Below, piece by piece: positions 1 to 9,471 of a stretch of 9,497 bases of DNA. The notes beneath the pieces were generated by a model, which saw nothing but the letters and a program-made list of their open reading frames with translations, was not told where the DNA came from and made no database searches. Location of the stretch: positions 1 to 9,497 of the forward strand of contig CALBOC010000072.1 in assembly GCA_937896705.1 (NCBI GenBank). The letters run 5' to 3'. The translations under genes were made by a program, and so were the position numbers. Source of the stretch: an uncultured Micrococcaceae bacterium (GTDB lineage Bacteria > Actinomycetota > Actinomycetes > Actinomycetales > Micrococcaceae). The stretch's first letter is position 1. Every line of letters begins with the position of its first letter.

Positions 1-991
1 CAGATCCCGTGGAGGATTCAATCCCCGCCATGTCCAACCCAAATAATAACGAGTCCCCCTCGGCTTGTGCAAAGGAAAAGTGCACGTTCGTTGGCAGCCG
101 ATATTCGGGGTCGCGGGGACCTTGGAGTTTGGCTTCGGGAATCGCGGCTTGAATACCCGCGATGAGCTGGTCGCGCAGGCCGGCCAGCCGGGCGGATTCG
201 TCGGCCAGATTGGTCGTGGCGTCCTCGGCGGCTGCAGCAAAGGCAGCGATTAATGCGTCGGCGGTCGTACCCGAACGAATATCACGCTCTTGTCCCCCGC
301 CGTGAAGTACCGGCGTGGGTTTGGCATCGCGCCGAACCAGTAAGGCACCAACGCCAACCGGGGCACCGATCTTATGTCCCGAGAGGGCCATCGTGGTGAT
401 GCCATCGGCGAAGGTAATGGGCAGCGCGCCAAAGGCTTGGACCGCATCGACGTGGAAGGCTACGTTGTCGGTCTGGCACAGGGCTGCGATCTGTTCGATG
501 GGCTGGATCGTCCCGATTTCGTTATTTGCCCACATCAACGTGGCCAGGGCAATGCGACCCCGATGACGGTCCAGCGCGGCCTGCCACGCGGCCACGTCGA
601 CGAACCCTTCGTCGGTGACGTCGACAAATATCAGCTCAGCGTGCTCGTGGGACTCGAGCCACTCCAGAGATTCCATCACGGCCGGGTGCTCAATGCGGGT
701 GGCGATGACCACGTTTTTTGCGGGATCGGCCGTACGCGCTGCCAGGTAGAGCCCTTTGATGCCCAGGTTGTCCGACTCCGTTCCACCGGCGGTGAAGATC
801 ACCTCGGTCGGATCGGCGTCCAAAGTAGCAGCCAACCGGTCGCGCGCATCAGCGACCTGCAGCTTCACCGAGCGCCCCGCGGTATGCAACGCAGACGCGT
901 TGCCGGGCTGTTTCGCCTGGGCAATAAACGCCTCGAGTGCGGCGTCACGAACCGGCGTGGTGGCAGCGTGATCAAGATAAATGCGGGACAT
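1..991 (-). CDS. Cysteine desulfurase (class V aminotransferase fold, NifS/IscS type), 3'-truncated by window edge
   Basis: A PLP enzyme that removes sulfur from L-cysteine, giving alanine and a protein-bound persulfide for Fe-S cluster assembly or tRNA thiolation; cytosolic. The first 330 codons are present. The N-terminus MSRIYLDHAATTPVR is typical of the family. GGTESDN lies near residues 69-75, the PLP-stacking His102 in RIEHPAV, Asp182 and Gln185 in HVDAVQAFG, and the Schiff-base Lys207 in SGHKIGAP (codon 371-373). The reading ends in ESSTGS, so the catalytic cysteine of the usual STGSAC loop should be about two codons beyond the edge and cannot be checked. ATG at 989-991 fits the family N-terminus. 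There is no convincing Shine-Dalgarno; a TACACT box sits 7 nt upstream. The gene is divergent from the J-domain gene. In many actinobacteria mnmA follows such a gene, but that would be off-window. The exact subfamily (IscS-like versus a dedicated tRNA-thiolation enzyme) cannot be decided here. Confidence 0.96.
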   Translation of the reverse strand, partial: MSRIYLDHAATTPVRDAALEAFIAQAKQPGNASALHTAGRSVKLQVADARDRLAATLDADPTEVIFTAGGTESDNLGIKGLYLAARTADPAKNVVIATRIEHPAVMESLEWLESHEHAELIFVDVTDEGFVDVAAWQAALDRHRGRIALATLMWANNEIGTIQPIEQIAALCQTDNVAFHVDAVQAFGALPITFADGITTMALSGHKIGAPVGVGALLVRRDAKPTPVLHGGGQERDIRSGTTADALIAAFAAAAEDATTNLADESARLAGLRDQLIAGIQAAIPEAKLQGPRDPEYRLPTNVHFSFAQAEGDSLLFGLDMAGIESSTGS

Positions 992-1029: not shown

Positions 1030-1899
1030 GTGTCAGACAATTATGGTAACTCGTTAGACCCCTACCGTGTGCTGGGAGTCAGCCCTTCGGCGAGCGAAAA
1101 GCAGATCCGCCGAGCCTACTTAGCGTTGGCTAAAAAGCACCACCCGGACCGCGGTGGTGACGCCGCACGCTTCGACCAAATCACCAAAGCGTGGAACCAA
1201 CTGTCTGAGCTTGATTCCGAACCTGCGCCGGCTCAGGACTCGCCACGCCCGGCCCGCACCAACACGAAACCCCGCTCGGAACCAGAACCGGTTCGCTTCC
1301 GACCACCGCTAGCCGACGGGCCGGTTCGCACTCAGACGAATCCACCGGTCACCGTTGATTCGCTGTTGGCCCAACAACTCGTACACGGGAGTCTCCCCGG
1401 CGGATTTTTCACCCGCAAACAGCGCTCCCTGCACGCTCGGTTATCTGAGACATTGCAATCTCGCGTGCAATCAGCCCTGCCCGCCGTGCGCATTTTCCAC
1501 GGAGTCAAACTCTCGCGAAAGCTAACATTGGACACCGTACTGCTGGGCGGCACGAAAGTCGCAGTCTTCGCCGTCCAGTACACTCCGCCAGATGTGTACC
1601 AGTTCAACGGGAGCGAGCTGGTCGGTCGCAAACGCATTGAACTGCCCGACCTGACCGACGCCGTAGCCGGGCTACAAAAGCTGCTCCCCGATTTTGAGGT
1701 CGGCGGTTTTATCGTGCTGTTTTCGACCAATCCGCACGCCCCCACCATACAAGCCACCGACAGCCTCAACACCCTGGGCCTGACCGAAGTACCCGCCTCG
1801 ATCATGGATGCACTCCGCGATATCAAACTGTTCATCGGCACCGGCGAACACAATATCGTCGACCGGGCCGCCATGGGACAACTCATCGCCACACTATGA
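1030..1899 (+). CDS. J-domain protein with C-terminal NERD-like (nuclease-related) domain
   Basis: A 289-aa protein, probably cytosolic. Residues about 10-62 form a J domain (DPYRVLGVSPSAS, helix II, then the diagnostic HPD at 38-40), which in this family stimulates the ATPase of an Hsp70/DnaK partner. There is no Gly/Phe region, zinc-finger repeat or DnaJ C-terminal domain, so it is not DnaJ itself. A proline- and charge-rich linker (about 63-108) leads to a globular C-terminal half. There, RIFHGVKL..LDTVLLGGTKVAVFAVQY (about 154-184) resembles the core of NERD nuclease-related domains, but the usual D/E-x-K is replaced by a segment with Gln183, so catalysis is doubtful; this domain call is an inference. 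GTG at 1030 is chosen because the J domain starts soon after and the ATG at 1024 is out of frame and soon stops. The last 4 bp overlap trmL, suggesting co-translation. The client is unknown. Confidence 0.85.
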   Translation: MSDNYGNSLDPYRVLGVSPSASEKQIRRAYLALAKKHHPDRGGDAARFDQITKAWNQLSELDSEPAPAQDSPRPARTNTKPRSEPEPVRFRPPLADGPVRTQTNPPVTVDSLLAQQLVHGSLPGGFFTRKQRSLHARLSETLQSRVQSALPAVRIFHGVKLSRKLTLDTVLLGGTKVAVFAVQYTPPDVYQFNGSELVGRKRIELPDLTDAVAGLQKLLPDFEVGGFIVLFSTNPHAPTIQATDSLNTLGLTEVPASIMDALRDIKLFIGTGEHNIVDRAAMGQLIATL

Positions 1900-2405
1900 A
1901 CCCACACGACACCGCACCCCGTACCCCACAGACCGCCAATCCGCGATTCCGCCTGCTCTTTCACACCCCGGAGATCCCCGGCAACACCGGCAACGCCATC
2001 CGCCTAGCCGCCATCACCGGAGCCGAATTACACCTGGTTGAACCGCTTGGATTTAACTTCGACGATGCACACCTGCGCCGCGCCGGCCTGGACTACCACG
2101 ACCTGGCATTGGTCACCGTCCACGCCAACCTCGCCGCCGCGTGGGAAGCCCTGCAACCCGAACGCGTATTCGCGTTCACCGGTAGCGGCACCGTGCGCTA
2201 CGACGAGGTCGACTATCAACCCGGCGATGTGCTGGTCTTTGGACAGGAATCCACCGGGCTGCCCGACGAAGTGCTGACCGATGAGATGATTACCGACACG
2301 GTGTATTTACCGATGCAATCTGGACGCCGGTCACTCAACTTAGCCAACTCGGCGTCAATTGTGCTCTACGAGGCCTGGCGACAGCACGATTTCGCTGGGC
2401 GTTAG
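1896..2405 (+). CDS. trmL: tRNA (cytidine/uridine-34-2'-O)-methyltransferase TrmL, SPOUT/SpoU family
   Basis: A 169-aa SpoU-type methyltransferase (E. coli TrmL is slightly shorter), predicted to transfer a methyl group from SAM to the 2'-OH of wobble base 34 of certain tRNALeu species. The three family motifs are present in order: motif 1 as PEIPGNTGNAIRLAA (about 25-39), motif 2 as LVFGQESTGLP (113-123), and motif 3 as PMQSGRRSLNLANSASIVLYE from residue 139, which forms the trefoil knot that binds SAM. The first 16 residues are a family-unlike, probably disordered extension. ATG at 1896 overlaps the upstream TGA by 4 bp (ATGA), a normal translational-coupling arrangement, and no better internal ATG precedes motif 1. 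It is presumably expressed from the J-domain gene promoter. No key residue appears lost. Substrate specificity is taken from the family, not shown here. Confidence 0.93.
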   Translation: MNPHDTAPRTPQTANPRFRLLFHTPEIPGNTGNAIRLAAITGAELHLVEPLGFNFDDAHLRRAGLDYHDLALVTVHANLAAAWEALQPERVFAFTGSGTVRYDEVDYQPGDVLVFGQESTGLPDEVLTDEMITDTVYLPMQSGRRSLNLANSASIVLYEAWRQHDFAGR

Positions 2406-2450
2406 CCGACCATAGGGCGCGCCGAGCCATCCGAGCTTTGAACTCCTCGG

Positions 2451-2456
2451 TAAGCT
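2451..2456 (+). promoter_or_regulatory. Possible -10 box (TAAGCT) ahead of the sigma/anti-sigma fusion gene
   Basis: TAAGCT fits TANNNT and ends 8 nt before the ATG at 2465 (5 nt before an in-frame GTG at 2462), which could give a leaderless or nearly leaderless transcript. There is no Shine-Dalgarno before that ATG, and no -35 hexamer at standard distance. The 59-bp gap after trmL also allows read-through expression. Weak motif-only call. Confidence 0.3.
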
Positions 2457-2464
2457 TGACAGTG

Positions 2465-3838
2465 ATGGACACTTACACTCCCGGCCCCGCACAACTGCTC
2501 CGATCCGCTGGCGACGATGACACGGCCGCCTTCGCCGCGCTCTATGATGTCACCTCGCCGCAGGTCTTTGGCATGCTCTCCTCCATGTTCCCGGCTGAAG
2601 CCGACGCGCTGCAGGCCACCACGGACGCCTACGTCTCCTTGTGGCGCCAAGCGCCGCACTTCACGTTTGATTTCAATATTGACCACGCTGACGAAAACGC
2701 GCGGGACCGCACGGTCGTGGCCTGGATTAACTCGATAGCCCAGCAGACCGGGCGCTACCACCGTCCTGACGCCGAGGAAATCGGCTCCGTCGAACGCATG
2801 CACGCCATCGCAGGACAGCTGACCGAGTTGAAGCCTCTGACCTCGGCACAAGCCGTGGCGTTGACCACCGTGTGGTTGGGCGGCCGGACCGTCGAAGAGG
2901 CCGCGAAGGATCTCAACGTTGCCCTGCCGACCCTGAAATCGCGTCTGCGGGATGCTGCGGTGCGACTGACTCGGCACTACCTCTCCGAGATTCATGCCAA
3001 CGCTGACACCGACCCGCTGCTGGCCACCCGGGTGACCGGGTCGCTGTCTTCGTCGGGCGGTCAGACCGCGGCTTTTTCTGACGAGGTGAGCACCGATTTG
3101 CAGGTGGGGCTGGGCAGCGAATTAGCCACACTGAATGCATTGCAGGCTCTCAATGACGATGATGCGGTGGCCGTTGAGGCATGGATTAATCGGCAGGATC
3201 GCGATGTCGCAGCGCAATTACGCGCCCGCGCCACCCTGTTTCAGCGCATGCTGACCTGGGCGTATCGTCGGGTATCAGCGCACCCACCGGCGCAGTTATT
3301 AGAATCGGTGCTGGATCAACTGCCCGAACAAAACGTGAGCATCGGGTTTATTGAAACCGTGGAAGACTACGAGATCGAAGACGACCCGGCCCAGCAGCGT
3401 CGAAGCCGCACGATGTTCATTATTGTGGGTGCGGTATTGGTCATCGCCGTCTTGGTTGCGGTGATTTTTTTGAATACCGGGGAGCAACGTATCCGCAGCG
3501 CGGTGGATAATGCCGATGATGTAACCAGCGTGACCGCCGATCTTGACGGCTCGACGGTGGCCGGGCACTATTCGACGGAAGAAGACGCCGCCTACCTGTC
3601 GTTCAATGAGGTCCCCGAACTGGCCGAGGACGAGCGGTATCAGGTCTGGTTATTTGAAGAACCGGGCGGTCATGTCGTCTCTGTGGGACTGTTTACTGCT
3701 GAGCAAATGGAAAACGACGAGGTACGGTTCCGCGGGGTGAACTCATATGAACTGTTGTGGATCACGGTTGAGCCCGAGACTGGCTCAGAGACTCCTTCAA
3801 GCACCGCGCTGGTCGAGATGCCACTCACCCAGGGTTAG
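2465..3838 (+). CDS. SigK-like ECF sigma factor fused to RskA-like membrane anti-sigma factor
   Basis: A 457-aa protein. Residues about 18-100 resemble ECF region 2 (TAAFAALYDVTSPQVFGM, then ATTDAYVSLWRQAPHF, then VVAWINSIAQ). Residues 124-172 resemble region 4, with a clear helix-turn-helix (TVEEAAKDLNVALPTLKSRL). After a Ser-rich linker (about 173-215), LNALQALNDDDAVAVEAWI (223-241) resembles the sigma-binding start of RskA. PPAQLLESVLDQL (274-286) also matches RskA. One membrane helix spans about 317-336, after an RRSR stretch. The outer part (about 345-455) has the RskA signatures RYQVWLFEEPGG, SVGLF and ITVEPETGSETPSS. Predicted topology is N-terminus in, C-terminus out. SigK and RskA are normally separate neighbouring genes; here no stop or frame break lies between them. 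Region 2.3/2.4 lacks the usual basic and Asp residues, so -10 recognition is doubtful. ATG 2465 is preferred; TTG at 2438 would add nine residues. Target genes are unknown. Confidence 0.88.
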   Translation: MDTYTPGPAQLLRSAGDDDTAAFAALYDVTSPQVFGMLSSMFPAEADALQATTDAYVSLWRQAPHFTFDFNIDHADENARDRTVVAWINSIAQQTGRYHRPDAEEIGSVERMHAIAGQLTELKPLTSAQAVALTTVWLGGRTVEEAAKDLNVALPTLKSRLRDAAVRLTRHYLSEIHANADTDPLLATRVTGSLSSSGGQTAAFSDEVSTDLQVGLGSELATLNALQALNDDDAVAVEAWINRQDRDVAAQLRARATLFQRMLTWAYRRVSAHPPAQLLESVLDQLPEQNVSIGFIETVEDYEIEDDPAQQRRSRTMFIIVGAVLVIAVLVAVIFLNTGEQRIRSAVDNADDVTSVTADLDGSTVAGHYSTEEDAAYLSFNEVPELAEDERYQVWLFEEPGGHVVSVGLFTAEQMENDEVRFRGVNSYELLWITVEPETGSETPSSTALVEMPLTQG

Positions 3839-4590
3839 AACCCGGCAAACGTGGTTTCGTCATTGACGGCCACCACGTGAAAACGCTCGGCAGCACGGTC
3901 AGCCTCGGGATGGTTGGCGGCCAGGGCTGCCCGCACGCGGTCGTCCATAAGCTTCGGGTCTGGGTGTTGGGAAACATGCCGGTGCAAAGCGCTGAGCTTA
4001 TGCTCAACGTAATCGGTGACATCCACCGCCAGGTTGGCTAATTCTGTGGGAGCTCCCATCATCCATAACTGACCGATGTGAAATGCCGGCAGCTCAAGCT
4101 CCGGATAGGCGAAGGGATTTTCCACAGCCGGATAGATCGCCCGCGCGGTCGCCTCGCCAACGGCCAGGTGATCTGGATGCGAGGCTTGAATACGTTCCCA
4201 ATGGCGCTGCGGGTGCTGGCTGATAACCACCTCGGGCTGTACCTGGCGCATGACTCCGACCAGCTGACTGATGAGCCGGTGAGTGGGCTCGACGTAGCCA
4301 TCCGAGTGATCCAGGAAGCACACCTGGTCCACCCCGAGCTCGCGTGCGGCGTCGCGTTGTTCTTGCTGCCGCCGTGCCACCATCTGTTCACGGGTTTGAT
4401 CCAGCTCAAAACCTCCGGCATCACCGGACGTCACCAGGCAAAAGGTCACCTCAACCCCGGCGTCGGTCAGCGCCGCGATCGTGGCGCCGGCACCGAAGTC
4501 AATGTCATCGGGATGCGCGGCAATGGCCAGAGCACTCCGAATATTTGACGTCGAGACCAGGTCGGAAGCGAAAACAGGTTTGGTAAGCAC
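3835..4590 (-). CDS. PIG-L (LmbE-like) zinc-dependent N-acetylhexosamine deacetylase family protein
   Basis: A 251-aa probable metallo-deacetylase of the family that includes mycothiol biosynthesis MshB and mycothiol-S-conjugate amidase Mca. The signature AAHPDDID lies at residues 24-31; by family analogy His26 and Asp29 bind zinc and Asp28 is the general base. The third zinc ligand is probably His141 in SHPDHLAVGEA. No signal peptide is seen, so it should be cytosolic. The substrate is not determinable: MshB, Mca and general N-acetylglucosaminyl deacetylases share these motifs, and I see no feature that singles one out. GTG at 4590 is chosen: it puts the zinc motif about 24 residues in, as is usual, and a TACACT box lies 7 nt upstream. 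The frame is open to an ATG at 4656, but that would overlap the HtrA gene by 50 bp with no family-like sequence. It follows HtrA by 16 bp, and its stop overlaps that of the converging sigma/anti-sigma gene by 4 bp. Confidence 0.9.
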   Translation of the reverse strand: MLTKPVFASDLVSTSNIRSALAIAAHPDDIDFGAGATIAALTDAGVEVTFCLVTSGDAGGFELDQTREQMVARRQQEQRDAARELGVDQVCFLDHSDGYVEPTHRLISQLVGVMRQVQPEVVISQHPQRHWERIQASHPDHLAVGEATARAIYPAVENPFAYPELELPAFHIGQLWMMGAPTELANLAVDVTDYVEHKLSALHRHVSQHPDPKLMDDRVRAALAANHPEADRAAERFHVVAVNDETTFAGF

Positions 4591-4606
4591 GGCTACCAGT
4601 GTAGCC
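4591..4606. repeat. Perfect inverted repeat filling the whole HtrA/PIG-L intergenic gap
   Basis: GGCTAC-CAGT-GTAGCC: two 6-bp arms with a 4-bp centre. It begins right after the HtrA stop codon and ends right before the PIG-L GTG, and it contains the TACACT -10 box. It could be a protein-binding site over the promoter, or a small hairpin in HtrA read-through RNA affecting entry at the PIG-L start. It has no T-run, so it is not an intrinsic terminator. Confidence 0.55.
4598..4603 (-). promoter_or_regulatory. Putative -10 box (TACACT) for the PIG-L gene, leaderless arrangement
   Basis: The hexamer is the same as upstream of the cysteine desulfurase and has the same 7-nt distance to the start codon; from CTACACT through the start codon the two sites agree at 13 of 17 positions. 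No Shine-Dalgarno is present. A poor TTGGGT lies 15 nt upstream as a possible -35. This implies the PIG-L gene can be transcribed on its own from the end of the HtrA gene. Confidence 0.45.
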
Positions 4607-5851
4607 CTAGTTTGTCCCACCCAAGGTGACCGTTTCGGTGAACTCCTCACCGTCACGCTCGATGGTTAATTCGACCTCAGCACCGGCCGGGTATTCTCGA
4701 ACCGTCGCTGATAACGAGCCCGGATCACTAACGGTTTTCCCATCAATGCCCACGATCACATCATCGGGTTGGATTTCGGTGCCGTCCGCCGGGCCGTCTT
4801 CGACCACCTCGACGACCCGGGCGCCAGACGAGACGTACTGGTCACCGGCCGGCACGATGGTCACCCCGAGCATCCCGTGCGAGGCTTCGCCGTTTTCAAT
4901 GATCTCTTCAGCTACCCGCTGGGCGTAATCCACTGGGATGGCAAAACCCAGTCCGACGTTGCCCTCGGAGCGCGTGGCAATGGCTACGTTAATGCCGATG
5001 AGTCGTCCGGCTTGGTCCACCAGGGCACCACCCGAGTTCCCCGGGTTGATCGCGGCATCGGATTGGATCACGTTTAGGTGGATCTGCCCCTGCGGCGTCG
5101 GTGGCTGGGCTTGATCCGGGAGCCGGAACTCAAATGGGCTTTCCTGCTCGGGTGTATCGGGCTCTTCGGGGACCGCCGAGGATGCGACTGAAATCGTCCG
5201 ATCTAAGGTGGAGATAATGCCCTCGGTGACAGTGCCTGAGAGACCGAGTGGAGCACCGATGGCGACCGCCTGGTCGCCGACGTTGAGGTCTTCTACGCTG
5301 CCCATTTCAATGGGTGTGAGACCTTCTGCTTCGATTTTGATGACTGCTAGGTCTGACATTGGGTCCAAGCCCACGACTTCTGCTTCGTATACTTCACCGT
5401 CGGAGGTCTGTACCAGCACATCGGCGGCTGCGGTCTGCCCGCCGAGCGTCACCACGTGAGTATTGGTGACAATGTGGCCTTGTTCATCCAAAATGACTCC
5501 GGAGCCGGATCCCAGAGCCTGATCTCCCCCCACGGATAAGGTCACCACCGACGGGCCGGCCACGGCTGCAGCCTCGGTGGTCGGTGTGACGTCATCAGTC
5601 CGGTTGAGTTGTGGAGTGTGTTGTGGCGAGCCCTCGACAGTTGCGGAGCCCAGGGAGTTGACGGCCAATCCTCCGACGCCGCCGCCTAAGAGGGCCGCGA
5701 CTGCCACCGATGTGATCAAGGCGGGCCAACCGAAACGCTTCGATCTGCGTTCATTCACTTGTGCTGCCGGTGGTGGCGGAGGTGAATTCACGGAACCGTT
5801 ATCGGGTTGGTCGGTTCGACGCTCTGAGTCGTGTGGCCATGAGTTGGGCAT
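4607..5851 (-). CDS. Membrane-anchored HtrA/DegP-type serine protease (S1C) with PDZ domain
   Basis: A 414-aa envelope protease. The cytoplasmic N-terminus (1-40) is charged and has five prolines in a row; one membrane anchor lies at about 43-66, followed by an extracytoplasmic linker and a trypsin-like domain at about 95-312. The triad is His132 (TNTHVV), Asp167 (MSDLAVI) and Ser273 (NPGNSGGAL). A single PDZ domain (about 325-405) contains GMLGV, GPADG and QPDDVIVGIDG. Family role: degradation or quality control of misfolded or exported proteins, with PDZ control of activity. A proline- and acid-rich stretch of about 34 residues (224-257) interrupts the protease domain before the Ser region. 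ATG at 5849-5851 has a strong Shine-Dalgarno 6 nt away; the open frame reaches 5908 but lacks one there. The PIG-L gene follows after 16 bp. Its native substrate is unknown. Confidence 0.94.
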   Translation of the reverse strand: MPNSWPHDSERRTDQPDNGSVNSPPPPPAAQVNERRSKRFGWPALITSVAVAALLGGGVGGLAVNSLGSATVEGSPQHTPQLNRTDDVTPTTEAAAVAGPSVVTLSVGGDQALGSGSGVILDEQGHIVTNTHVVTLGGQTAAADVLVQTSDGEVYEAEVVGLDPMSDLAVIKIEAEGLTPIEMGSVEDLNVGDQAVAIGAPLGLSGTVTEGIISTLDRTISVASSAVPEEPDTPEQESPFEFRLPDQAQPPTPQGQIHLNVIQSDAAINPGNSGGALVDQAGRLIGINVAIATRSEGNVGLGFAIPVDYAQRVAEEIIENGEASHGMLGVTIVPAGDQYVSSGARVVEVVEDGPADGTEIQPDDVIVGIDGKTVSDPGSLSATVREYPAGAEVELTIERDGEEFTETVTLGGTN

Positions 5852-5857
5852 TCGCCG

Positions 5858-5866
5858 TCCTTTCCT
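5858..5866 (-). promoter_or_regulatory. Ribosome binding site deciding the HtrA start
   Basis: AGGAAAGGA on the minus strand sits 6 nt before the ATG at 5851 and supports that start over the upstream in-frame ATG at 5908. An AT-rich patch at about 5873-5893 just upstream is the likeliest place for the promoter, but I see no clean TANNNT there. Confidence 0.75.
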
Positions 5867-6167
5867 GTCAGCTCTATTTTGATATATTTTTCTGGATGTC
5901 GACGCCATGAAGCCCGAACATTTCCTGATCGTTCTCCGCGCGTTCGGTCCATGCTCTCCGGTGCCCTAACAGAGCCGCCCTACCGGTTCTTGTATAGGCT
6001 ATCGGTCAAGAGCCTAGGATGCGCGGGTCCAGTTCCTCTTCGTCATGCGCTGGCAGTGAAGTGTGGTGCAAGGAAAGAAGTGCCAAGGCCGGCAGAATGG
6101 GCCCGACAGACGCCGGCAGATTTTAGTACCAGCGATGAGATCTGAGACGAAGTATAGCTGCAACGCA
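5867..6167. other. Intergenic stretch upstream of HtrA, no convincing gene
   Basis: About 300 bp between the HtrA start region and the tRNA terminator. It holds the AT-rich patch at 5873-5893 (probable HtrA promoter zone). The + strand frame open at 5879-6145 has no Shine-Dalgarno and no recognisable protein character, so I leave it out. A 9-bp direct repeat, GCCGGCAGA, occurs at 6088-6096 and 6112-6120; because GCCGGC is its own complement, the copies could also pair as a short hairpin. I recognise no known RNA family or riboswitch. An unannotated small RNA cannot be excluded. Confidence 0.5.
6088..6120. repeat. Two 9-bp direct repeats GCCGGCAGA, 24 bp apart
   Basis: Exact copies at 6088-6096 and 6112-6120. 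The GCCGGC core is palindromic, so this could be a paired regulator site or a 6-bp stem with an 18-nt loop. Short enough to be chance in GC-rich DNA. Confidence 0.3.
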
Positions 6168-6357: not shown

Positions 6358-9300
6358 CTAGTCACCCTCCCCTTCGGTGTCATTGTTAGCAGTGTCACTT
6401 TCGTCGGTGTCAGCAGCATCTGGGTCTTCGCCCTCTTCGAGTGCGAGAGCGCGCTCCAGGGCTTCCTGCAGGTCGGCTTGGGCCTGACCGTACTCTGCCC
6501 AGTCACCGTCTGCCATGGCGCTCTCCGAGCGAGCCATCGCGTCACGGGCGTCGTCGAGCGCTTCAGTGAGCTGTTCAGCAGGTGACCCCGCCAACGGTGG
6601 CTCAGCCTGGTCTCCTTCCGGAGCCTCTTCACCTTCCGGTACGTCTTCGGTCTGTTGTTCCTCTGGCGTTTCGGCACCGGAGTCACCTTCGAAGACCTGG
6701 TCGAGTGCTTCGGCCAGGGTGTCAGCGAAACCGACTTCGTCACCGAAGGCCACCAGGACCTTCCGAAGTACAGGGTAAGACGTCTCACCCGTGGAGCGGA
6801 CGTAGACCGGCTGGACGTAGAGGATACCGTTAGCCACCGGCAAGGTGATCATGTTGCCGTTGATTACATCGGAGGCACCCTGACGCAGCAGGTTCAGCTC
6901 ACGTGACACGGTGTCATCGGAGTTGAAGTTGTTCTGTGCCTGCCCGGGGCCAGGAGTTGTGGTCTGGCGCGGCAGTTCTAGCATCTGCAGCTGTCCGTAG
7001 GTGTCTGCTTTGACACCGTCTTCGCCGGTCCCGGCGTCCCCATTGGCGCCCAGGAAGCCGTACAACACGTTTCGCTGTGCGGCTCCTTCACGTTCCTGTG
7101 GGATGTACGGGGTGGTGAGCTGGAAGGCTGGTTCTTCTTGGCCCGGCATCTGCATGGTCATGTAGTACGGCGGGATTTTCACGCCCGCTTCGGAACCCGA
7201 GGTTGGGTCATCCGGGATGGACCATGCGTCGTTGGCCTCGTAGAAGTCCCCTGGATCATCGACGTGGTAACGCGCCAACTGTTCACGCTGTACTTTGAAC
7301 ATGTCCTGCGGGTACCGGACGTGGTCCAGCAGATCAGCTGACATCTCCGAGTACGGCTGGACGGTGTCCTCGTAGACGTTCATCCACGCTTGGAGTAAGG
7401 GATCTTCTGGTTCCCAAGCGTAGAGATCGACGCTGCCGTCATAGGCATCGACGGTGGCTTTGACCGAGTTCCGGATGTAGTTGATTTGTCCCGATAACAC
7501 CAGGTTCGGATCCACGTTCAGCGCATCGACTGTCGCGGACTCGAGCTGTGACTGGTCGGAATATGGGAACGCGTCTGAGGTCGTGTAGGCGTCGACAATC
7601 CACTTGACCTTCCCGTCGACAATCGCCGGATAGGTATTGGTATCAACCGTGAGGTATGGCGCGACTTTTTCAATGCGCTCTACGGGGTCACGGTCGAACA
7701 GAATCTGCGACTGCGAGTTGACGTCCTGGGAAAGGAACAAGTCGGTAGAACCGAATTTTATCGCATAAGCCATCCGGTTGAACATGCCACCGATTGATGG
7801 GCCACCATCGCCACTAAAGGTGTAGGTAGTGTCCTGTTCGGACCCGGTTTCCTGCGGACGGTCACGTTCGCGATCGGGTTCGCCTTCCTCTTTACCCACT
7901 ACCGAATATTCCGGTGCGCTGCGACCAAAGTAAATCCGCGGTTCGTATTCATCTTCCGAAGCCAAGGGCCCAGACGTTGGAATACCGGACAGCAGGAACT
8001 GGGGACGTCCACCGCCGCCTACTTCTGAGGCGTCGGCTGCGACAATGCCGTAACCGTGAGTGTAAATGACGTGCTGGTTGACCCAGGAGTCATCACCCGG
8101 TGGGCTGATCTCACGTGCTGCTAGTACGGTATCGCGGACTTCTCCGTCAATCTCATACCGATCGACGTGCAGCGTCGATGGGAAGGAGTAGTACGGACGG
8201 AACTGCTGGAGCTGCCCGAACGTTTCGCTGAGCAGGTTCGGGTCCATCAACCGCACGTTGGCGGTTGTGGCGGACTCGCCTTCTAGCGCTCCGGCTTCGG
8301 TTTCAGTTTCACCGGCATAGGGGGTGTATTCAACATCTGAGACGTCGTACCCTTCGCGAGTGTATTCAATGTTGCGCTCAATATAGGGCGCTTCCATGGT
8401 CTGCTCGGTTGGCGATACCCGGTATTCCTGGATCAGGAATGGATAAATCGAACCGGCAATCAGTGCGGCAACCAAGAAGCCTGCCACACCGATGATGGAC
8501 AACCGCCAGCTACCGTTAATCATCGTGGCAATAAACAGCCCGATGACCAGCAGCGCTGCGATCGACAAAATCGTTGAGGTTGGGATGACCGCGTTGACGT
8601 CGGTGTACATTGCACCGGCCCAGTTGCCGGACTGGTCCTGCAGGGTCTGGTAGCGGTTCAGCCAGTATCGGCCGGCCTGTAACAGCATGTACAGCGAGGC
8701 GAAGACCAGAATATGGATCCGCGCTGCGCGTTCCACGGTGATGCCGGCGCCATCTTCGATACGAATACCACCGTAGAGGTAGTGCACGATGATGCCTGCG
8801 ATCCCGGCGACCAACACGATCGAGGTCAAGAACGACAGCACCGTGGACACCATCGGCAAGGTGGCCATATAGAAAGTCAGATCCAGACCAAATTCTGGAT
8901 CTTCCATCCCGTACGGCACCTGGTTGAAGAACAACAGAACTTGTTCCCAGCCATTCATTGCTGCGGTACCAGCAAAGAACCCAATCAGGATCGGCGCGCC
9001 GATGAACACCAATCGACGGATTGGCTCAAGTTGTCTTTGATATTGCTCGACGTTTTGACGAAGCTGGCCGGCGAGGTTTTTCGGGCGATGTTTATACGCC
9101 AGATGCAGCGCAAGCCACGTCACGACGGCCATGAGCACACCGGCAATCACAAAGAGTATTGCTTTGGTGACGTTCTCAATCCAGAACACCTGCTGGTAGC
9201 CCAGTTGGTTGAACCACAGCACCTCGGTGTAGACCATGGTGAACAGCACAAACAGGGCTACCAGAACACCGAGAATAATCAGTGTTAGCAGTAAAGCGCC

Positions 9301-9471
9301 TGGCCGACGCGAACCTGCGCCTTCCCCGCCTCCCCTGTCATCGCTTCCTGAGCCTCCGCTGCCTGACGAAAATCCATACCCACGGGTCGATGACCCGTCG
9401 GAATCGCCAGAGCCACCGGAGGGATCATCGGGGCGACCAAATATGCCGCCGAATCCTTGTCCGAAACTCAC
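6358..9471 (-). CDS. UPF0182 family membrane protein
   Basis: A 1037-aa integral membrane protein of the UPF0182 family, whose function is not established. The N-terminus (1-57) is Gly/Ser/Asp-rich and probably disordered. Seven likely membrane helices lie at about 58-80, 102-125, 152-172, 203-230, 251-268, 298-318 and 322-343. A very large domain (about 350-925), predicted extracytoplasmic, contains family-like runs such as APYIERNIEYTREGY, RPYYSFPSTLHVDRYEIDG, YTHGYGIV and RNSVKATVDAYDG. The last 110 residues are strongly acidic, with a helical Ala/Glu/Gln segment (about 963-1013) around GDWAEYGQAQADLQEAL and an acidic end. Members run about 900-1000 aa, so this one is slightly long because of its tails. 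GTG at 9471 is supported by AGGGA 6 nt upstream. It is followed by tRNA-fMet on the same strand. Confidence 0.95.
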   Translation of the reverse strand: MSFGQGFGGIFGRPDDPSGGSGDSDGSSTRGYGFSSGSGGSGSDDRGGGEGAGSRRPGALLLTLIILGVLVALFVLFTMVYTEVLWFNQLGYQQVFWIENVTKAILFVIAGVLMAVVTWLALHLAYKHRPKNLAGQLRQNVEQYQRQLEPIRRLVFIGAPILIGFFAGTAAMNGWEQVLLFFNQVPYGMEDPEFGLDLTFYMATLPMVSTVLSFLTSIVLVAGIAGIIVHYLYGGIRIEDGAGITVERAARIHILVFASLYMLLQAGRYWLNRYQTLQDQSGNWAGAMYTDVNAVIPTSTILSIAALLVIGLFIATMINGSWRLSIIGVAGFLVAALIAGSIYPFLIQEYRVSPTEQTMEAPYIERNIEYTREGYDVSDVEYTPYAGETETEAGALEGESATTANVRLMDPNLLSETFGQLQQFRPYYSFPSTLHVDRYEIDGEVRDTVLAAREISPPGDDSWVNQHVIYTHGYGIVAADASEVGGGGRPQFLLSGIPTSGPLASEDEYEPRIYFGRSAPEYSVVGKEEGEPDRERDRPQETGSEQDTTYTFSGDGGPSIGGMFNRMAYAIKFGSTDLFLSQDVNSQSQILFDRDPVERIEKVAPYLTVDTNTYPAIVDGKVKWIVDAYTTSDAFPYSDQSQLESATVDALNVDPNLVLSGQINYIRNSVKATVDAYDGSVDLYAWEPEDPLLQAWMNVYEDTVQPYSEMSADLLDHVRYPQDMFKVQREQLARYHVDDPGDFYEANDAWSIPDDPTSGSEAGVKIPPYYMTMQMPGQEEPAFQLTTPYIPQEREGAAQRNVLYGFLGANGDAGTGEDGVKADTYGQLQMLELPRQTTTPGPGQAQNNFNSDDTVSRELNLLRQGASDVINGNMITLPVANGILYVQPVYVRSTGETSYPVLRKVLVAFGDEVGFADTLAEALDQVFEGDSGAETPEEQQTEDVPEGEEAPEGDQAEPPLAGSPAEQLTEALDDARDAMARSESAMADGDWAEYGQAQADLQEALERALALEEGEDPDAADTDESDTANNDTEGEGD

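Follow-up and report, generated by a model that had tools for sequence, protein, structure and literature searches.

The closest described relatives of the protein analysed here are the sigma factor SigK and its anti-sigma factor RskA (ECF18/ECF19), whose complex from Mycobacterium tuberculosis has been solved (4nqw). According to the available text of PMC5411451 and PMC8999054, IutY of Pseudomonas putida (ECF243) places a sigma part, a membrane helix and an outer anti-sigma part in one polypeptide and serves iron cell-surface signalling, becoming an active sigma factor once it has been proteolysed, and the accessible part of PMC8999054 describes ECF48, ECF52 and ECF53 of Actinobacteria as sigma domains with a C-terminal, anti-sigma-like membrane extension containing a zinc-finger domain. 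A further comparison is the sigma-like domain of PhyR, a response regulator acting on the separate NepR; as far as the available portion of PMC8103513 goes, this domain has the ECF fold and degenerate contacts to promoter and core, and its binding partner is an anti-sigma factor.

In the 9,497-nucleotide stretch of DNA that was analysed (the window), a single open frame of 457 residues joins homologues of both SigK and RskA in the order of the two-gene system, and split pairs occupy the same locus in relatives (Table 1). The protein differs from SigK-RskA in being one chain, in having lost residues of region 2.2 and the −10 helix together with both redox cysteines, and in carrying a larger loop stretch. 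It differs from IutY in that its anti-sigma part is of the RskA type and its sigma half, judged by its residues, looks inactive; from ECF48, ECF52 and ECF53 in that it carries RskA_C and an RskA-type domain, and Pfam found no zinc finger in it; and from PhyR, whose degenerate contacts it appears to share, in that it contains its own partner and is membrane-bound. In the literature searched by title and abstract no RskA fusion is described, and one may still be published elsewhere. Database names such as 'anti-sigma factor domain-containing protein' and 'Regulator of SigK' conceal the sigma-like half.

The chain runs from an ECF sigma-2/sigma-4 fold through a linker to an RskA-type anti-sigma domain (ASD), one membrane helix and an RskA outer domain, which bears out the initial annotation's reading of one frame joining these parts. 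Its expectation of sigma and RskA profile matches held in part. On the sigma side, the NCBIfam SigK model matches residues 9–169 (E 2.3e-19, 69.8 bits), far below its 226-bit cut-off, and Pfam sigma regions 2 and 4 (12.8 and 15.4 bits) both fall under theirs. On the RskA side, RskA_C clears its cut-off (65.2 against 29.4 bits), while the NCBIfam anti-sigma model over residues 225–447 (E 4.2e-24, 85.8 bits) stays below 100 and RskA_N (12.9 bits) below 27; RskA_N exceeds the Pfam cut-off in the relatives L156, L158, L161 and P0130. By sequence search, chain A of 4nqw matches residues 11–170 (E 3e-10) and chain B, weakly, residues 219–285 (E 0.28), and Rhodobacter SigE is another solved relative (E 8.5e-5). 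No receiver domain was among the 8 Pfam families reported at E up to 10 for the window's protein.

Table 1 Features of the window; residues are counted along the 457-residue fused chain.
Feature	Position	Strand	Basis
Cysteine-desulfurase-like frame, running past the window start	2..991	-	by eye
DnaJ-domain protein; long C-terminal part without Pfam match	1030..1899	+	
SpoU-type RNA methylase (trmL-like), upstream neighbour	1896..2405	+	Pfam; 17/17 fused, 20/22 split loci
TAAGCT, −10-like box 8 bases 5' of the ATG	2451..2456	+	TANNNT statistics
Fused gene	2465..3838	+	457 aa plus stop; frame, Pfam/NCBIfam matches, homologues
Sigma-2-like domain, degenerate, residues 8–104	2486..2776	+	4nqw_A fit in model; Pfam 12.8 bits, cut-off 24
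Place of region-2.2 motif (Q-E in split SigK), lost, residues 49–54	2609..2626	+	residue comparison
26-residue stretch between two conserved Trp, residues 61–86	2645..2722	+	15 residues in split SigK
Helix bearing RRAxDRxR in SigK; two Arg and Asp absent, residues 87–99	2723..2761	+	
Sigma-4-like helix-turn-helix, residues 109–176	2789..2992	+	Pfam, AlphaFold model, structural fit
KSRLRD recognition helix motif, kept, residues 158–163	2936..2953	+	KSRxRD in 41/50 fused
Linker, residues 177–215	2993..3109	+	model confidence low at 192–198
RskA-type anti-sigma domain, residues 216–286	3110..3322	+	NCBIfam, 4nqw_B by sequence and fold
Membrane helix, residues about 318–340	3416..3484	+	sequence; model helix 308–336
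Outer RskA_C domain, residues 341–457	3485..3835	+	Pfam 326–445, E 9.3e-18
PIG-L deacetylase (mshB-like), downstream, convergent	3835..4656	-	Pfam; 17/17 fused, 17/22 split loci
Membrane-anchored trypsin/PDZ (HtrA-like) protease gene	4607..5908	-	17/17 fused, 20/22 two-gene loci
UPF0182 family protein	6358..9471	-	

We compared the sigma halves of 50 fused proteins with 38 unfused SigK-type proteins (22 from two-gene loci and 16 further copies from fused genomes), numbering residues after the SigK of locus L023 and assigning them to what we take, from general knowledge of ECF sigma factors, to be region 2.2 and the −10 helix. Gln62 of region 2.2 is present in 38 of 38 unfused proteins and 1 of 50 fused ones, and Asp96 of the −10 helix in 38 of 38 and none of 50; the window's protein has neither. 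Glu63 is not universal even in unfused copies (29/38, against 1/50 fused), and Arg92 of the −10 pocket, found in all 38 unfused proteins, is kept in 29 of the 50 fused proteins, those of the window's clade not among them. Both structural tryptophans, Trp69 and Trp85, are kept in 50/50 fused proteins, and the stretch from one to the other spans 14–15 residues in unfused and 22–65 in fused chains. By comparison with sigma-H, in the available text of PMC6411747, this stretch contains the specificity loop that reads the −10 element. Cys139 and Cys189, which correspond by count along the chain to Cys133 and Cys183 in the accessible part of PMC7509140, occur in all 22 two-gene proteins, in 6 of the 16 further copies and in none of the 50 fused proteins. 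That same part of PMC7509140 gives two redox cysteines for 94% of ECF18 and reports that a cysteine-less SigK still works, so cysteine loss alone does not rule out a sigma factor.

By these residues the sigma half is degenerate, having lost what the two-gene versions keep. Profiles separate the two kinds of protein as well: Pfam sigma region 2 scores 55–65 bits in 6/6 split SigK proteins and less than its 24-bit cut-off in 10/10 fused proteins scanned, and none of the 131 distinct homologues listed has a precomputed sigma-2 match, while precomputed sigma-4 matches occur in 2/32, 20/24 and about 59/76 members of three homologue sets. The KSRxRD motif of sigma-4 is kept in 41 of the 50 fused proteins. 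It is absent from nine group C proteins (L156, L160, L165, L250, L253, L256, L261, L262 and L264), which suggests that group C has taken a further step away from DNA binding.

In two AlphaFold models, sigma-2 and sigma-4 are placed as in RskA-bound SigK. Chain A of 4nqw fits both sigma domains of the models at 2.2 and 2.8 Å, the 2.2 Å fit spanning 141 residues, whereas ECF sigma factors taken from holoenzymes lie about 20–28 Å from the models with both domains aligned; the solved 4nqw structure may have influenced both models. The superposition of sigma-2 and sigma-4 on 4nqw_A leads us to predict a closed arrangement held by the ASD, as in the RskA-bound crystal. Chain B of 4nqw superimposes on the ASD at 1.3 Å over 68 columns, yet with a Foldseek E of only 1.6, and it is absent from the best 50 Foldseek matches of model 2, which is weak (pLDDT 68, ASD poorly modelled). 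Beyond the ASD, the model shows one long helix and a beta domain from residue 354 onward.

All 17 fused loci with long flanks carry the window's neighbours, the dnaJ-like gene included, with the fused gene between trmL and the PIG-L gene. Among 22 two-gene loci of the family, which were picked for high RskA scores, trmL and htrA lie nearby in 20 and the PIG-L gene as well in 17. A tree was computed from the 50 fused chains together with 22 joined pairs from two-gene loci and another 8 pairs, by a quick method with SH-aLRT support only and with long branches flagged. In it the fused proteins form one clade, all on one side of a branch (SH-aLRT 100), with a stem of 1.73 changes per column and two-gene pairs of the same family adjoining it. 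Because the locus is shared with split sigK-rskA and the clade is single, we read the fusion as a single event at this locus. A canonical SigK (175–240 bits) is also encoded in 9 of the 25 fused genomes examined, and in the two of these that were laid out (L239, L240) it lies at another locus; the remaining 16 give no SigK match of at least 175 bits besides the fused gene.

Constraint is uneven along the chain. For the nine sequences of the window's clade, the paired values of identity and pN/pS are, along the chain: sigma-2 0.88/0.11, sigma-4 0.81/0.19, linker 0.79/0.20, ASD 0.89/0.10, juxtamembrane segment 0.88/0.09, membrane helix 0.80/0.18 and outer domain 0.74/0.24. The outer domain is thus the least conserved region, and sigma-2 and the ASD are among the most conserved. 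These values indicate strong purifying selection on both sigma-2 and the ASD in this clade, and the low pN/pS leads us to reject simple decay of the sigma half there. In the high-GC groups B–D, where low synonymous change inflates pN/pS so that only ranks within a group can be read, sigma-2 and the ASD rank high in C and D too; group B differs, its highest ranks going to sigma-4 and the linker (both 0.87/0.22), ahead of sigma-2 (0.80/0.36). Group C has pN/pS of 0.6–1.0, and the sigma half may have decayed there. In the top 50 covarying column pairs, from a thin sample of 21 effective sequences, sigma/anti-sigma pairs are enriched 1.9- and 2.7-fold, and sigma/outer-domain pairs are not (0.2- and 0.5-fold).

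Since the residues lost are those that unfused SigK keeps, we predict a membrane-held pseudo-sigma regulator and not an initiating sigma factor, a reading that ranks as the likeliest and that we nevertheless hold tentatively, with somewhat less than even confidence. The ASD would keep sigma-2 and sigma-4 closed; a signal at the outer domain, likely acting through membrane proteolysis, would loosen or free the cytoplasmic module; and the freed sigma-4 helix-turn-helix would act as a regulator by binding −35-like DNA, while forming no holoenzyme of its own. Here we infer the output and the release, and likewise the loss of initiation, which is read from residues only. The neighbouring HtrA-like protease might make the initial cut in the outer domain. 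Genes for M50 (site-2) proteases are present in 16/16 fused-type genomes searched and likewise in 14/14 control genomes, and therefore say little for the release pathway. The nine group C proteins lack the sigma-4 motif, which excludes DNA binding as the output they have in common. We count against the pseudo-sigma regulator that Arg92 is kept in 29 of 50 fused proteins and that conservation in group B is highest in sigma-4 and the linker instead of sigma-2.

We give about even chances to a wider account, in which one in-place SigK-RskA fusion produced a new membrane receptor: a one-chain pseudo-sigma whose sigma-2 would no longer serve RNA polymerase and would be selected as the partner of the ASD, whose output would come from sigma-4 or the anti-sigma face, and which has been inherited in Enteractinococcus, Yaniella, Auritidibacter, Citricoccus, Nesterenkonia and Garicola, in some outlasting canonical SigK. 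It looks like a sigma factor captured by its inhibitor and repurposed, and since the two-gene form persists at the same place in relatives, the two forms can readily be compared to learn how a sigma/anti-sigma switch might become a one-component membrane regulator.

The alternative ranked second, which we regard as unlikely, is a working sigma factor with altered promoter recognition that is inhibited by the fused ASD and freed by regulated membrane proteolysis. IutY would be its precedent, since the available text of PMC5411451 and PMC8999054 gives it as an established case of sigma and anti-sigma parts in one chain that two proteases activate, and the retained sigma-2 fold and tryptophans, the sigma-4 motif in 41/50 fused proteins, Arg92 in 29/50 and the presence of M50 proteases all fit. 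This is close to what the initial annotation had proposed, a working sigma factor tethered to its own inhibitor, and the residues argue against it: the region-2.2 Gln is lost in 49/50 fused proteins and the −10-helix Asp in 50/50, the loop stretch is replaced and the cysteines are gone. The SigK-like/RskA fusion on which that proposal was built stands, and the regulator or decoy it offered as an alternative fits better.

A third and distinctly improbable reading is a PhyR-like mimic in cis, in which the sigma half caps its own ASD until a signal opens the pair and the ASD captures another ECF sigma factor. The degenerate, anti-sigma-binding domain of PhyR (PMC8103513, in the part available) sets the example, the joint strong constraint on sigma-2 and the ASD in groups A, C and D agrees with it, and the separate canonical SigK of 9/25 fused genomes would be a possible target. 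It provides no such target in the 16/25 genomes that give no SigK match at that threshold, and leaves the retention of the sigma-4 DNA motif in 41/50 proteins unexplained. Lower still we place the possibility that the cytoplasmic half is a mere folded scaffold for an outer domain with a function unrelated to transcription: group C has indeed lost the sigma-4 motif too, but in the window's clade it is the outer domain that is least conserved and sigma-2 and the ASD that are among the most.

We reject an artefact of sequencing or assembly as the source of the fusion and consider its probability practically negligible. Related genomes do have split genes at this locus, yet every one of the 32 close homologues is fused over its full length (98–100% query coverage, 42–93% identity), at least 49 of 295 family genomes carry one intact fused frame by profile search, and the fused proteins form one clade. 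The initial annotation had named a stop and start in the linker of close relatives as the sign of such an error; the fusion proves instead to be shared by relatives. The nearest named relative is a protein of Enteractinococcus fodinae, 93% identical. Of the 75 loci retrieved from named genomes, 8 have one frame (two in Enteractinococcus, four in Yaniella, one in a Micrococcaceae MAG and one in Auritidibacter), and a second, separate RskA frame accompanies 20 of the remaining 67. Protein searches added carriers in Citricoccus, a 'Micrococcus sp.' MAG, Nesterenkonia and Garicola.

Two records stand apart. In one further genome (G189, locus L263) the fused gene is interrupted by an in-frame stop, so that this copy is either a pseudogene or misassembled, and the fused protein P0069, filed as Actinocorallia glomerata, groups with Nesterenkonia sequences, so that this record may be mislabelled.

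A TANNNT box supports position 2465 as the start of the fused gene, subject to a caveat on start choice. Such a box lies 7–9 bases 5' of the ATG in 31/31 fused genes compared with 86 of 2981 ATGs (2.9%) at the same loci, a figure that is overstated because the genes are akin and some high-GC starts were picked among several with the upstream sequence in view. Its closeness to the ATG suggests a leaderless or nearly leaderless transcript. A consensus promoter scan of positions 2350–3950 returned no −35/−10 consensus pair (0.4 in shuffles).

The 'RskA' of Nesterenkonia sp. Act20 is described in the available text of PMC8965627 as dropping under UV-B and then recovering. The Act20 genome (G261; loci L158, L171 and L192) holds three RskA_C genes, one of which is the fusion, so the UV-B-responsive protein could be any of them; the fused protein P0058 from this strain is identical to that of L158.
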